In this document: piece after piece, positions 2,858 through 5,782 of the stretch
Layout: every line of letters starts with the position of its first letter
Numbering within the stretch: the first letter of the stretch is position 1
Source: Cryobacterium luteum
Lineage (GTDB): Bacteria > Actinomycetota > Actinomycetes > Actinomycetales > Microbacteriaceae
Direction of reading: 5' to 3'
Assembly: GCF_900110125.1 (NCBI RefSeq)
Contig: NZ_FOCN01000017.1
Location: 1 to 64,000 of the forward strand
Length of the DNA stretch: 64,000 nucleotides
The notes under the pieces: generated by a model
Told to the model about the DNA's origin: nothing
Databases searched by the model: none
What the model saw: only the letters and a program-made list of their open reading frames with translations
Program-made: the position numbers and the translations under genes

Positions 2858-3493
2858 ATGTTTGTCATCACCGCCGACCAGATCGACAGCCGCAATGATC
2901 GTGATCGTGCGCGCGAGATGATCGCTCACCTCGTGGCGCAGAGCCCGCGGGCGTTCAGCCTGCCGCCGGACCAGACCGCCGGCGATGAGATTCAGCTGCT
3001 GGTGTCGGCTGCCGGGCCTGCGCTGGAGGCGATTCTGGCCCTGCACCGTTCCGGCCACTGGAGCGTCGGGCTCGGCGTGGGGAGCGTGCGCACCCCCCTG
3101 CCGGCTTCGACCCGGCAAGCCACCGGCGACGCCTTCATCGCCGCACGCGACGCCGTGCTGCGGGCGAAAAAGACCGAGGCCCATTTTGCGCTCGAGCCGG
3201 GCCGAACGGATGCTGCCGCCCCCGGCATCGAGGCGCTCCTCACTATGCTCTTGCTGTTGCGTCAACGACGCACCCCCCAGGGCTGGCAGGCCGGCGACCT
3301 GTTGGAACGCGGACTGGCCCAGACTGACATCGCCGAACAGCTCGGCATCACCACCGGAGCGGTGAGCCAGCGGCTCAAGGCGGCGCAGTACCGCGTCGAG
3401 CAGGCGGCGCGGCCGGCGTTGGTTAGGCTGCTGGAGCAGCTCGATGTTGCCCCGAACGAAACGGCCGATAACGAAACGGACAGCACACTATGA
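2858..3493 (+). CDS. SatD-family protein with C-terminal helix-turn-helix
   Basis: A 211-aa protein whose N-terminal half matches the SatD family, named after the Streptococcus mutans sat operon and of unknown biochemical function. Visible landmarks are ITADQIDSR at residues 4-12 (family pattern GDxxDSR), AGDEIQLLV at 41-49 (family GDEFQ), VGLGVGSVRT at 70-79 and GDAFIAARDA at 90-99. The last ~60 residues contain a helix-turn-helix (LAQTDIAEQLGITTGAVSQR), so DNA binding is likely. I infer that the two acidic landmarks D7 and D43, plus the GLGVG strand, resemble the layout of a nucleotidyl-cyclase palm domain; this is untested. Start at ATG 2858 with GGACGGAG upstream; the longer frame upstream lacks family similarity. 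It overlaps the next gene by ATGA. Confidence 0.75.
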   Translation: MFVITADQIDSRNDRDRAREMIAHLVAQSPRAFSLPPDQTAGDEIQLLVSAAGPALEAILALHRSGHWSVGLGVGSVRTPLPASTRQATGDAFIAARDAVLRAKKTEAHFALEPGRTDAAAPGIEALLTMLLLLRQRRTPQGWQAGDLLERGLAQTDIAEQLGITTGAVSQRLKAAQYRVEQAARPALVRLLEQLDVAPNETADNETDSTL

Positions 3494-4089
3494 CCCTCAC
3501 CGTTCTCACGTTCCTGTACTGGGTCGCGCTGCTGCTGGTCACGCTCGCCTCGCTCACCTTCGCAGCGATCGCCTTCAAACTGCACCGCCAGCTTTACGCG
3601 ATCGCCGCCACGACAGGCCTGGCCGTTGCCCTCGTGCTCGCCGCCGTTCCGGTTGCGCCCGGTCCGAGCGCCTTCGGCATTGTGCTCGGCATGCTGGCCC
3701 TCGCTCTTGCTGTGATCGGCGGCGGCCCGGCAGCGGTGCTCGCCCTTGATCTCGCGACCAACAATTCGGTGCCACCTGGTCAGCACGGCGGAATCATGGT
3801 GCTCAACGCCGGAAAACCGGCCCCCTCCCCGGCCGGGGTCGGCCTCCCTGAAACTCACGAGGTGCTGCGCGGCGGGGTGACCATCGGTATCCTGGAACGT
3901 CTCGCCGTGGCCGGGGCCATCCTGGCCGGATTTCCCGAGGCCATCGCCGTGGTCGTCGCCATCAAGGGCGTTGGCCGGTTCACGGAGCTTGCCGCGGCCG
4001 AGTCCCGCGAACGGTTCATCATCGGCACGCTGTCGAGCCTTACCTGGGCGTGCGCCTGCGCTGCACTCGTGCCGATGGCCCTGGTCTAG
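3490..4089 (+). CDS. DUF3307-like integral membrane protein, partner of the SatD-like gene
   Basis: A 199-aa protein with about five hydrophobic segments (roughly residues 5-27, 35-55, 58-82, 135-158 and 175-198). The C-terminal half, GILERLAVAGAILAGFPEAI followed by KGVGRF and RERFIIGTLSS, has the pattern of DUF3307 proteins (GERLL...G...AI...AAKSILRF...YxxIGTLLS). DUF3307 genes commonly sit next to satD-like genes in diverse bacteria. Here the start codon overlaps the satD stop (ATGA), so the two are translationally coupled. It ends in a tail-to-tail overlap with the converging CPBP pseudogene. A membrane effector or sensor controlled by the SatD-like protein is plausible but inferred only from linkage. 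Confidence 0.65.
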   Translation: MTLTVLTFLYWVALLLVTLASLTFAAIAFKLHRQLYAIAATTGLAVALVLAAVPVAPGPSAFGIVLGMLALALAVIGGGPAAVLALDLATNNSVPPGQHGGIMVLNAGKPAPSPAGVGLPETHEVLRGGVTIGILERLAVAGAILAGFPEAIAVVVAIKGVGRFTELAAAESRERFIIGTLSSLTWACACAALVPMALV

Positions 4090-4821
4090 GCCCGTGATTT
4101 CAGCAGGCTCGGAATAACCAAGAGTCCGACGATCGTGATCCCCGCGCCCATCAGGGTGGGGATGAGTGTCGTCGTGGCGGGTGTGGTCGTCGCGATGTCA
4201 AAGACGGCGTGAAAGACCGCGACCACGATGAATCCGGCCGCGGGCATGGTCCGGTAAGTCGGGGTTATGCCGAACAGCGGCGGGTGCCATGCCGCCCGCG
4301 CTGCGGCGACCAGCACGGCTGCTCTCAGCGTCGAATGCCGGAATTGCAGGGTTGGTTGGGCGAAACCGCGCCAGCCGATCTCCTCACCGAAACCATAGAA
4401 GATCAGGTTGGCGGTCCAGAAAACGAGTACCGGCAAGAATGCGTACTCGACGCTCGCACCGAACCGCGAGGTGTCGGGCCATACCCCGTCGACGAGCCGG
4501 GCGACAAAGACCGCTATGGCGAACAGCACGAGCGGTCCGAGCGCGGCCAGGGCCCGCCAGCGCAGGCGACCACGCACCGCGACCATCCGCCGCAGCAGAT
4601 CGAGGATGCGCACGCGGCCGGCAATCAGAGCGGTCACGATCACCGCGGAGATGGCCGGGCCGAGTCCGCCGGCCAGGTGCAGGTACGGCGACGCCGTCCA
4701 GTCGACCCGGTCCTGCCGGCCAGCGAGCAGCGGCAGCGAGCAGCGGCAGCGGCAGCGGCAGCCAGATCGTCCAGGAGATCGCGTACGCGAGAACCACAAA
4801 CGTCATCACCGGATGACGCAC
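4086..4821 (-). pseudogene. CPBP-family intramembrane protease gene, frameshifted by a 13-bp duplication
   Basis: Two reading frames together encode one CPBP (Abi/CAAX-like) membrane metalloprotease. The N-terminal part starts at ATG 4821 (MRHPVMTFVVLAYAISW...). The rest, in another frame, starts near the repeat and runs LLAGRQDRVDW through a membrane-rich region with the catalytic motif FGEEIGWRG (family EExxxR), AAWHPP and FHAVFDIA, to the stop at 4086. The break falls in a 13-bp tandem repeat (4721-4746). Deleting one copy fuses the frames precisely as WLPLPLPLLAGRQDRVDW, giving a normal-length protein. It may be a recent null allele, a phase-variable gene or a sequencing error. Confidence 0.8.
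4721..4746. repeat. 13-bp tandem duplication causing a frameshift
   Basis: CAGCGAGCAGCGG occurs twice in direct succession (4721-4733, 4734-4746), followed by further CAGCGG units. Thirteen is not a multiple of three, so the extra copy shifts the reading frame of the minus-strand CPBP protease gene. Confidence 0.9.
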
Positions 4822-5011: not shown

Positions 5012-5782
5012 ATGCGCACGCTACAGGACACCAAACCGATCTGGCATGCTCTCATCTGGATTGCGGGGTACATCGCTATTGTCAACGTCGGCGATGCCGT
5101 CTCTGAAGCGATCGGCATCGCCAGCGCCGGCACCGCGCTGCTGCTCGTGGTCTATTCGCTCGCGCTGCTCGGGTATCTGCGGGGCGCCAATCGCATGCGC
5201 TTCTACGGACTGCGCCGGGCCGAGCCGGGAACGATGCGACTCACCGCGTTCTACCTGCCGCTGTTCGCGCTGACCCTCTTTCAATACGCCAAGGGCCTCA
5301 ATTCCGACCTCGACGCTCAGACGGTTGTGATCGCCTGCATCCTCATGATCGGTGTCGGATTCGTTGAAGAGTTAATCTTCCGCGGCTTTCTGTTCCGGGC
5401 GGTTCTAGCGAAGAAGACCGTTCTCCGGGCCATCTACCTCAGTGGTGTCGCGTTCGGCTTCGGCCACATCGTCAACCTGCTGCGCGGCTATACCGGCTCT
5501 GACCAGCTTATTCAGCTCGTCGCTGCCATCGTGATCGGGATCGCGCTCGGGTACGTGGTCGCCATCACTCAAAGCATCCTGCCCGGCGTGCTGTTTCACA
5601 TTCTCTTCAATATCAGCGGCGCGCTCACCACCCACGATGTGGTTTGGGACACGGTTCTCGTGGGCGCGATGGCCGTCGTGCTAGTGCCGTATATCGTGTA
5701 TCTGCATCGGGTGCTCACCCGATCGACCGGCCAGCCCGCTACTTGCGCCGACACAATCGCGCCCGCCGCAGCAACAAAGTAG
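5012..5782 (+). CDS. CPBP family intramembrane glutamic endopeptidase
   Basis: A 256-aa polytopic membrane protein with about seven or eight hydrophobic segments. The three CPBP (Rce1/Abi-type) motifs are visible: VEELIFRG (residues 118-125, catalytic EExxxR), the histidine motif FGFGHIVNL, and LFHILFN further on. Family members process prenylated or other membrane substrates or give bacteriocin self-immunity; the substrate here cannot be told. It faces the frameshifted CPBP gene across about 190 bp without other recognisable features, in divergent orientation. The two are only distantly alike, so this is not a local duplication. It ends 8 bp before the converging glycosylase gene. Confidence 0.85.
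   Translation: MRTLQDTKPIWHALIWIAGYIAIVNVGDAVSEAIGIASAGTALLLVVYSLALLGYLRGANRMRFYGLRRAEPGTMRLTAFYLPLFALTLFQYAKGLNSDLDAQTVVIACILMIGVGFVEELIFRGFLFRAVLAKKTVLRAIYLSGVAFGFGHIVNLLRGYTGSDQLIQLVAAIVIGIALGYVVAITQSILPGVLFHILFNISGALTTHDVVWDTVLVGAMAVVLVPYIVYLHRVLTRSTGQPATCADTIAPAAATK

Follow-up and report, generated by a model that had tools for sequence, protein, structure and literature searches.

A SatD-like protein and its membrane partner in Cryobacterium luteum: a conserved gene pair and candidate autoregulated nucleotide-signalling module

A conserved gene pair beside tyrS

We analysed a window of 64,000 nucleotides from Cryobacterium luteum (NCBI RefSeq assembly GCF_900110125.1, contig NZ_FOCN01000017.1, positions 1 to 64,000 of the forward strand) and focused on two adjacent genes, one encoding a SatD-like protein (satD) and the other its putative membrane partner. 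As an earlier note on this DNA had described, the two open reading frames are coupled by a shared ATGA at 3490-3493, a 4-base overlap.

2858-3493, + strand: SatD-like gene (satD), open reading frame of 211 amino acids; predicted palm domain at residues 1-115 and helix-turn-helix (HTH) at about 140-176
3490-4089, + strand: membrane partner gene, open reading frame of 199 amino acids; predicted C-terminal domain as in DUF3307 proteins, with DUF3307 itself absent

We counted a protein as a close SatD orthologue at E below 1e-30 and as a close partner at E below 1e-15. A close SatD orthologue was present in 79/150 genomes of the window's family (Microbacteriaceae), and the membrane gene lay directly 3' of satD in 79/79 of these. 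The partner starts between -32 and +86 nt from the satD stop, with the 4-base overlap in 54 of the 79 loci. An 80th orthologue, from a genome of another family (G363), has no partner. The reverse search found a close partner in 80 family genomes, namely the 79 with SatD and one more, G100. The match in G100 is a short partner fragment in a 139-aa frame (C1:501524-501793) in a genome with no SatD match, and is perhaps a decaying locus.

We also surveyed the named loci of the best 80 of at least 539 relatives, checking neighbour families by Pfam. The closest named relatives listed belong to Cryobacterium, with 91% identity to C. ruanii. A divergent tyrS lies upstream of satD in 80/80 loci, and the partner lies 3' of satD in 79/80, the exception (L191) stopping at a contig edge. 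A methylpurine glycosylase gene is found near the pair in 69/80 loci and argH in 76/80. From this synteny we conclude that the locus is core and vertically kept. Between the partner and the glycosylase gene, the window also carries two Rce1-like (CAAX protease family) membrane genes, at 4089-4799 (- strand) and 5012-5779 (+ strand), which are matched in only 2 and 3 of the 80 loci, respectively.

Beyond close orthologues, a broad SatD profile (A2) used at 1e-6 had matches in 117/394 genomes of the class, some few through the HTH alone, and the Pfam family PF16264 (SatD) matched 17/296 genomes of the phylum at 1e-3. The earlier note had stated that satD often stands beside DUF3307 genes; our survey found satD linked to a DUF3307-type gene as far as haloarchaeal plasmids. 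The gene pair is thus real, coupled and conserved.

SatD has a predicted palm fold with two conserved aspartates

Homology of the window protein to the SatD family spans the palm domain and the HTH, including the D, GDE, GxGxG and AR motifs. The SatD identity proposed by the earlier note holds in this respect, but the score against PF16264 is 15.9 bits, under the Pfam cut-off of 29, and an orthologue (G079) attains the cut-off only when neighbouring pieces are counted. Among the N-terminal domains of one alignment (A5), 28/33 match PF16264 at E up to 1, the best at 1.7e-18. By sequence, the window SatD is best described as a member of a divergent SatD subfamily. The landmarks that had been pointed out are all present: D7, G42-D43-E44, VGLGVGSV (70-77) and GDAFIAARDA (90-99). 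Eleven residues are invariant in 30 SatD orthologues (D7, G42, D43, E44, G71, G73, G75, G90, A96, R97 and K104). G42-D43-E44 is invariant in 96 SatD sequences down to 22% identity, and D7 is kept in at least 90% of them.

2876-2878, + strand: D7 codon; putative first metal aspartate by analogy, aligning to the aspartate in FTDIVGS, a motif of Rv1900c
2981-2989, + strand: G42-D43-E44 codons; putative second metal site on the beta2-beta3 hairpin by analogy, aligned with the GD of Rv1900c

The structure model of SatD (pLDDT 95) shows a palm domain followed by an HTH, and the palm resembles GTP cyclohydrolase III (GCH III), class III cyclases, GGDEF proteins and OptS of Panoptes. Of the 50 structural VIA rows listed, 49 are GCH III, class III cyclase, GGDEF or mCpol entries aligned on residues 1-115, when grouped by entry title and general knowledge, and the palm match extends from residue 1 to about 115-134. 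The earlier note had held that a fold without a palm, or random conservation of D7 and D43, would remove its idea of a cyclase-like protein. A palm fold is predicted, and the conservation of the two aspartates is non-random (30 orthologues, 96 sequences and all 243 assessable partnered copies, see below), so the idea stands on both counts. Sequence searches of the Protein Data Bank (PDB) gave a best E of only 1.2 for the window SatD alone, whereas a profile of the whole protein returned mostly HTH matches, with Rv1900c at 0.11. Because HTH matches dominated, the search was repeated with the N-terminal domain alone, using a profile built from 33 of the 96 SatD rows.

The likeness to class III cyclases is partial. 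The two metal aspartates of these enzymes appear to be kept in SatD, and R97 is nearly invariant; its equivalence to the transition-state arginine is a reading of the motif, as the alignments end before R97. The adenine-specifying lysine and the transition-state asparagine, with their positions in SatD placed by motif, are not kept in the orthologues. Four residues before D43 SatD has Q or R, and four before R97 it has F, Y or L (W in many distant SatDs), whereas the class III rows compared have K in 10/12 and N in all 9 that cover the asparagine position. Because neither position is kept, SatD does not read as a canonical adenylyl cyclase. It is apparently a palm protein of the class III cyclase/GGDEF/mCpol superfamily with an intact two-aspartate metal site, judging from the model and alignments. 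The window genome itself has no match to PF00211 (class III cyclase) and six GGDEF matches; among same-genus genomes, PF00211 matches only 2/19.

These findings bear on two further readings of the palm. SatD might only sense, with a metal-nucleotide pocket (for example for GTP or ATP) setting DNA binding without synthesis, and might in this way tune the amount of a partner that is a transporter or envelope protein. We regard this as possible but doubtful. The regulators Rv2242 and BAD_0249 (9f80, 3onq), which are among the top Foldseek rows with 221-235 columns over the whole SatD model, speak for it, as does the loss of the cyclase Lys and Asn positions. We take both regulators to be PucR-type proteins, with a palm-like domain, presumably with degenerate metal residues, and an HTH. 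No PucR or CdaR domain was among the 17 Pfam families matched by the window proteins at E up to 1. A pure sensor, however, need not keep both metal aspartates across such divergence. The second reading follows the GCH III entries: SatD would be a metabolic enzyme of that type, its product feeding back on its own operon and the partner handling the metabolite, which we consider highly improbable.

Tandem palindromes precede satD, and two of their positions covary with its predicted recognition helix

The earlier note had proposed that an HTH is fused to the palm and that SatD controls its own promoter. In the model, the C-terminal helices (DSSP) are 140-150, 155-162, 166-175 and 178-200. Together with weak Pfam matches (Sigma70_r4, E 2.8e-4, under its cut-off), they agree with the predicted HTH. 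Upstream of satD we found tandem 20-bp palindromes with the consensus ATYAAGNCTNNAGNCTTRAT, scored with a position weight matrix (PWM).

2780-2799, + strand: putative operator 1, palindrome ATTCAGGCTAAAGACTCAAT; PWM score 17.2; 78 nt before the start codon; pattern match 2781-2798
2808-2827, + strand: putative operator 2, palindrome ATTTAGGCTGTGGACTCAAT; PWM score 15.4; 28 bp after operator 1; pattern match 2809-2826
3353-3382, + strand: codons of the predicted recognition helix 166-175 (DSSP helix); operator positions 2 and 5 vary together with its residues 167 and 171

When the motif was trained on the full set of 144 distinct satD upstream regions, 137 of them showed a site and 118 showed two or more, compared with shuffled means of 4.8 and 0.3, respectively. 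The spacing was 28 or 29 bp in 174/184 neighbouring operator pairs. In a held-out test, the motif was trained on 42 Cryobacterium regions only and applied to the 102 other regions; two of the 80 named loci outside the training group (L184 and L191) also bear the name Cryobacterium. At a threshold of 6, a site was found in 91/102 regions and a pair at 28 or 29 bp in 62. The controls gave sites in 2/102 satD coding starts, 0/102 stretches located roughly 700 nt upstream, most of which are tyrS, and 5/102 shuffled regions, with no such pairs. At a threshold of 8, the count was 81/102 regions, compared with 0 coding starts, 0 upstream stretches and 3 shuffled regions.

We then examined whether operator bases vary with residues of SatD across 135 loci, ranking each residue only against other variable SatD columns. 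Operator position 2 was best predicted by residue 167 of the recognition helix: Gln occurs with C in 55/57 cases, and Ala, Gly, Pro or Ser with T in 61/78. The excess mutual information was 0.62 for residue 167, followed by residues 166 and 101, both at 0.42. Similarly, position 5 was best predicted by residue 171 (Lys with C in 11/14), with an excess of 0.33 compared with 0.15 for the next column. A cherry test of this coupling had too few changes to decide. From the operators and their covariation with the recognition helix, SatD very probably binds the tandem operators before its own gene and most likely regulates itself, in support of the self-control that had been proposed. Repression of its own operon is the likely sign, judged only from the position of the operators, which are no more than 80 bp away from the start codon.

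A pattern made from the two window sites, allowing at most one mismatch, matched these two (one also on the minus strand) and C37:424-441 in the 3.83 Mb genome; a control search gave 1 match. We considered a wide SatD regulon and set it aside, as the pattern is nearly confined to SatD's own promoter; weaker sites would escape the pattern. This near-limitation also speaks for a SatD that only senses and adjusts the level of its partner. For distant SatDs, a free palindrome search of the upstream regions gave a best half-site agreement of 6-8 of 9, compared with shuffled means of 6.3-7.9. This search is weak, since the window's own site scores only 7 compared with 6.65, and we therefore limit the operator claim to the window-type SatD group.

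The partner carries the C-terminal domain of DUF3307 proteins

The earlier note had described a five-helix, DUF3307-like partner. The model (pLDDT 93.3) instead has six helices of at least 12 residues (2-31, 34-52, 60-90, 129-145, 151-162 and 170-198), and no clear solved structural relative was found for it. The protein had no Pfam match below E 0.2, no NCBIfam match and no Pfam match to PF11750 (DUF3307) at E up to 1. What it holds is a shared C-terminal domain with the pattern RGG..IG..ER ... K..RF.E ... E.F..G...S. An hhalign comparison with a haloarchaeal DUF3307 protein (98.5%, E 2.8e-15) covers only the C-terminal part of that protein (149-248), which has its DUF3307 domain at 15-115. 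Among eight non-orthologous actinobacterial partners scanned, one has DUF3307 (L059, residues 8-117). Thus the likeness to DUF3307 proteins is kept for their C-terminal domain and lost for the DUF3307 domain itself, and the partner is, on this comparison, to be read as the unnamed C-terminal domain of DUF3307 proteins rather than as a Pfam DUF3307 protein. DUF3307 is described as a family of unknown function.

Nine residues are invariant across 90 relatives of the partner: G129, G133, E136, R137, K159, R163, E174, G179 and S183. From the positive-inside rule and the KLHR at 30-33, we infer that the charged ones face the cytosol, which fits the need for a nucleotide-receiving site.

Two SatD queries returned five plasmid records (three haloarchaea, Sphingomonas and Arthrobacter), and in 5/5 the following gene matched the partner profile, with E values of 8.3e-11 or lower when ten proteins were searched; two of these proteins have only 138 and 149 aa. 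In two haloarchaeal plasmids, SatD overlaps the annotated DUF3307 gene. Short partners of 138-149 aa that consist of the C-terminal domain alone (L331 4105-4554, L332 5151-5567 and L055 3216-3629) are the smallest form of the module seen. From the short and the DUF3307-bearing partners together, the C-terminal domain is what stays constant in the module, and DUF3307 is an optional extra. The SatD-DUF3307 pairs at L330 and L334, which lie on plasmids from two different haloarchaeal genera, are nearly identical by eye, which suggests recent transfer. A phage collection searched with one DUF3307 protein gave no match; a haloarchaeal partner did match PHROG 2470 (phage membrane protein) through its DUF3307 part.

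SatD loci with PycTM

In four genomes of one genus (G363, G478, G497 and G812), a canonical SatD, PycTM and a window-type SatD occur together, and the usual partner is missing at the locus. PycTM, which we take from its Pfam title and from general knowledge to be the Pycsar membrane effector, is supported by PF18967 in three genomes (6.7e-17 in G363, 3.3e-17 and 2.6e-17), as well as by PADLOC in G363 and by a profile built for this analysis in G812. The PycTM and window-type SatD genes point away from each other. Operators occupy the region that precedes SatD, as a pair spaced by 28 bp in three genomes and by 56 bp in the fourth. Operators lie upstream of the listed PycTM start as well, as checked for G363 alone. 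The three genes are packed at L244 6019-7993, L224, L225 and L301, with operators between PycTM and SatD, a layout that could possibly be a SatD-driven Pycsar-like locus. Across 61 genomes of that genus's family we counted 7 PycTM matches, spread over 6 genomes, and 3 of these matches are at SatD.

The PycTM neighbourhood links SatD to cyclic-nucleotide effectors independently of the fold, and the absence of the usual partner beside PycTM suggests that the effectors are interchangeable and membrane-acting. This lineage speaks against a SatD that is purely a sensor.

The predicted metal site goes with the partner

We compiled a census of 266 distinct SatD domain sequences, with partner calls corrected for frames starting far upstream. 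One locus (L319) was counted as partnered by hand because its partner is visible in the locus listing, and near-identical genomes from two collections may be double-counted. The census holds 244 partnered SatDs, 9 beside PycTM (8 genes, as L046 is a cut copy of another such row), 2 at contig edges and 11 with neither. D7 and D43 are both kept in 243/243 assessable partnered SatDs (L116 has no assessable D7) and in all copies beside PycTM. D7 is lost in 5/11 partnerless SatDs (L308, L310, L312, L329 and L328). L328 has an alignment gap at D7, where the sequence reads otherwise by eye, and is the sole partnerless copy losing D43. G42 is changed in L308, L310 and L329, and Ser replaces R97 in L048, L049 and L051, which are also partnerless. 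The operator is absent at 4 of the 5 copies that lost D7 and present at L312. L308, L310 and L312 are second SatD copies beside an intact pair. Since L308, L310, L312 and L329 belong to one family and L328 to another, the losses represent few, non-independent events. In one genome, a window-type partner and a canonical SatD are convergent and adjacent (L318, 63-3502).

The retention of D7 and D43 with the partner, and the loss of D7 in several partnerless copies, tie the palm chemistry to the membrane protein, which also weighs against a pure sensor. The near-strict co-occurrence of SatD and its partner would suit an antidote-like pair, in which SatD keeps a toxic membrane protein in check, both by repressing it and by direct contact, and the palm is a scaffold. 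A Streptococcus pyogenes gene annotated satD is, in the available text of one report, accessory, with 178/249 genomes carrying it, yet essential in transposon screens (PMC11323703), which an antidote would be expected to be. The satD name there is, however, an eggNOG annotation. A scaffold role would leave the invariant metal residues unexplained, and the satD locus is core and syntenic. We therefore consider an antidote-like pair improbable.

Discussion

We lean slightly towards reading the satD pair as a nucleotide-signalling module that regulates itself and has a layout similar to that of Panoptes or Pycsar. In this model, SatD would bind the tandem palindromic operators just upstream of satD, most likely repressing the operon. 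Its palm domain would bind, and probably convert, a nucleotide, as the fold and the conservation of the metal site suggest. The nucleotide state would be passed to the membrane protein, whose invariant charged residues would face the cytosol and which would be the effector, and the same state would also set operator occupancy. Gene coupling, the predicted palm fold, the conserved metal residues and the operators are what the data show; operator binding by SatD is very probable, and a nucleotide that SatD would bind or make and the membrane protein would receive is the more tentative part of the model.

Several observations weigh against this. The palm fold serves widely different enzymes, the SatD model has no PDB match below E 1e-3 in Foldseek, and the cyclase Lys and Asn are missing. 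The N-terminal profile gives IMP dehydrogenase (E 0.026) nearly the score of the cyclase, and a further cyclase alignment spans 47 columns around GDE, with D7 excluded. At the operators, 7 of 9 variable positions couple best outside the recognition helix, with ancestry controlled only by ranking, and a consensus promoter scan gave no match. The conserved chromosomal setting is unlike defence islands. PycTM is not in SatD's operon, and its presence at SatD is one evolutionary event within a single genus, further species of which combine the usual partner with a canonical SatD (L242, L243, L311, L314, L323 and L324). Finally, 6/11 partnerless SatDs keep both aspartates (L048, L049, L051, L050, L241 and L318).

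A bolder form of the nucleotide-signalling model, which we offer tentatively and think rather unlikely as a whole, is that SatD is a second-messenger synthase and its own transcription factor. With its DUF3307-type effector it would represent an ancient palm-signalling layout beside Panoptes and Pycsar, in bacteria and haloarchaea, often as a core pathway rather than mobile defence, and its product may restrain a harmful effector as in Panoptes. Such restraint would explain the essentiality of an accessory satD; by analogy, the S. pyogenes result would suit SatD restraining its partner as the OptS signal restrains OptE (PMC12657218, in the text available). The mainly open-access literature on SatD and DUF3307, as far as its accessible text goes, offers annotation, acid tolerance and the essentiality report, with no mechanism and no cyclase link. 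New here are the tandem satD operators with recognition-helix covariation, the partner as the C-terminal domain of DUF3307 proteins, and PycTM beside SatD. If the nucleotide-signalling model is true, an uncharacterised gene pair becomes a signalling system that comprises a defined operator, a membrane effector and an enzyme site open to direct testing, and a puzzling essentiality in a streptococcus gains a candidate explanation. The design, in which the signal maker sets its own expression, would be unusual, and the system would be an overlooked one common to bacteria and archaea.

Comparison with known systems

The SatD (PF16264) and DUF3307 (PF11750) pair shares the palm-plus-HTH architecture and the GDE motif with the window SatD, which falls below the Pfam cut-off, whereas the window partner keeps the C-terminal domain only. 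The available text on DUF2652 places bacterial proteins, Actinobacteria included, among the class III cyclases and describes their Asp pair as mostly retained and their Asn as absent (PMC4886424), a cyclase-like state that SatD resembles. DUF2652 is a different family, described there as single-domain with one exception, and the word SatD is absent from that text. PADLOC gave no match for the window SatD or its partner, with a 2023 library that may lack OptE (S-2TM-beta).

Pycsar (PycC and PycTM) likewise places a cyclase-like enzyme near a membrane effector, and PycTM adjoins SatD in four species. However, the SatDs scanned match no PycC model, the usual SatD partner is not PycTM, and the window partner matches no PycTM model (Pfam, PADLOC). 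Panoptes (OptS mCpol and OptE) has a two-gene layout like that of the satD pair, with a small palm enzyme beside a membrane protein. The structural alignment to OptS starts with model residue 1 at OptS residue 0, which would put D7 at Asp6, the catalytic residue of OptS in the text available (PMC12657218). OptE belongs to a membrane family other than that of the window partner, the satD locus is core and syntenic, and the same text mentions no DNA-binding domain in OptS. By analogy, then, the satD pair would be of a known kind, a nucleotide enzyme with a membrane effector, and its twist would be an enzyme that carries a DNA-binding domain for its own operon.
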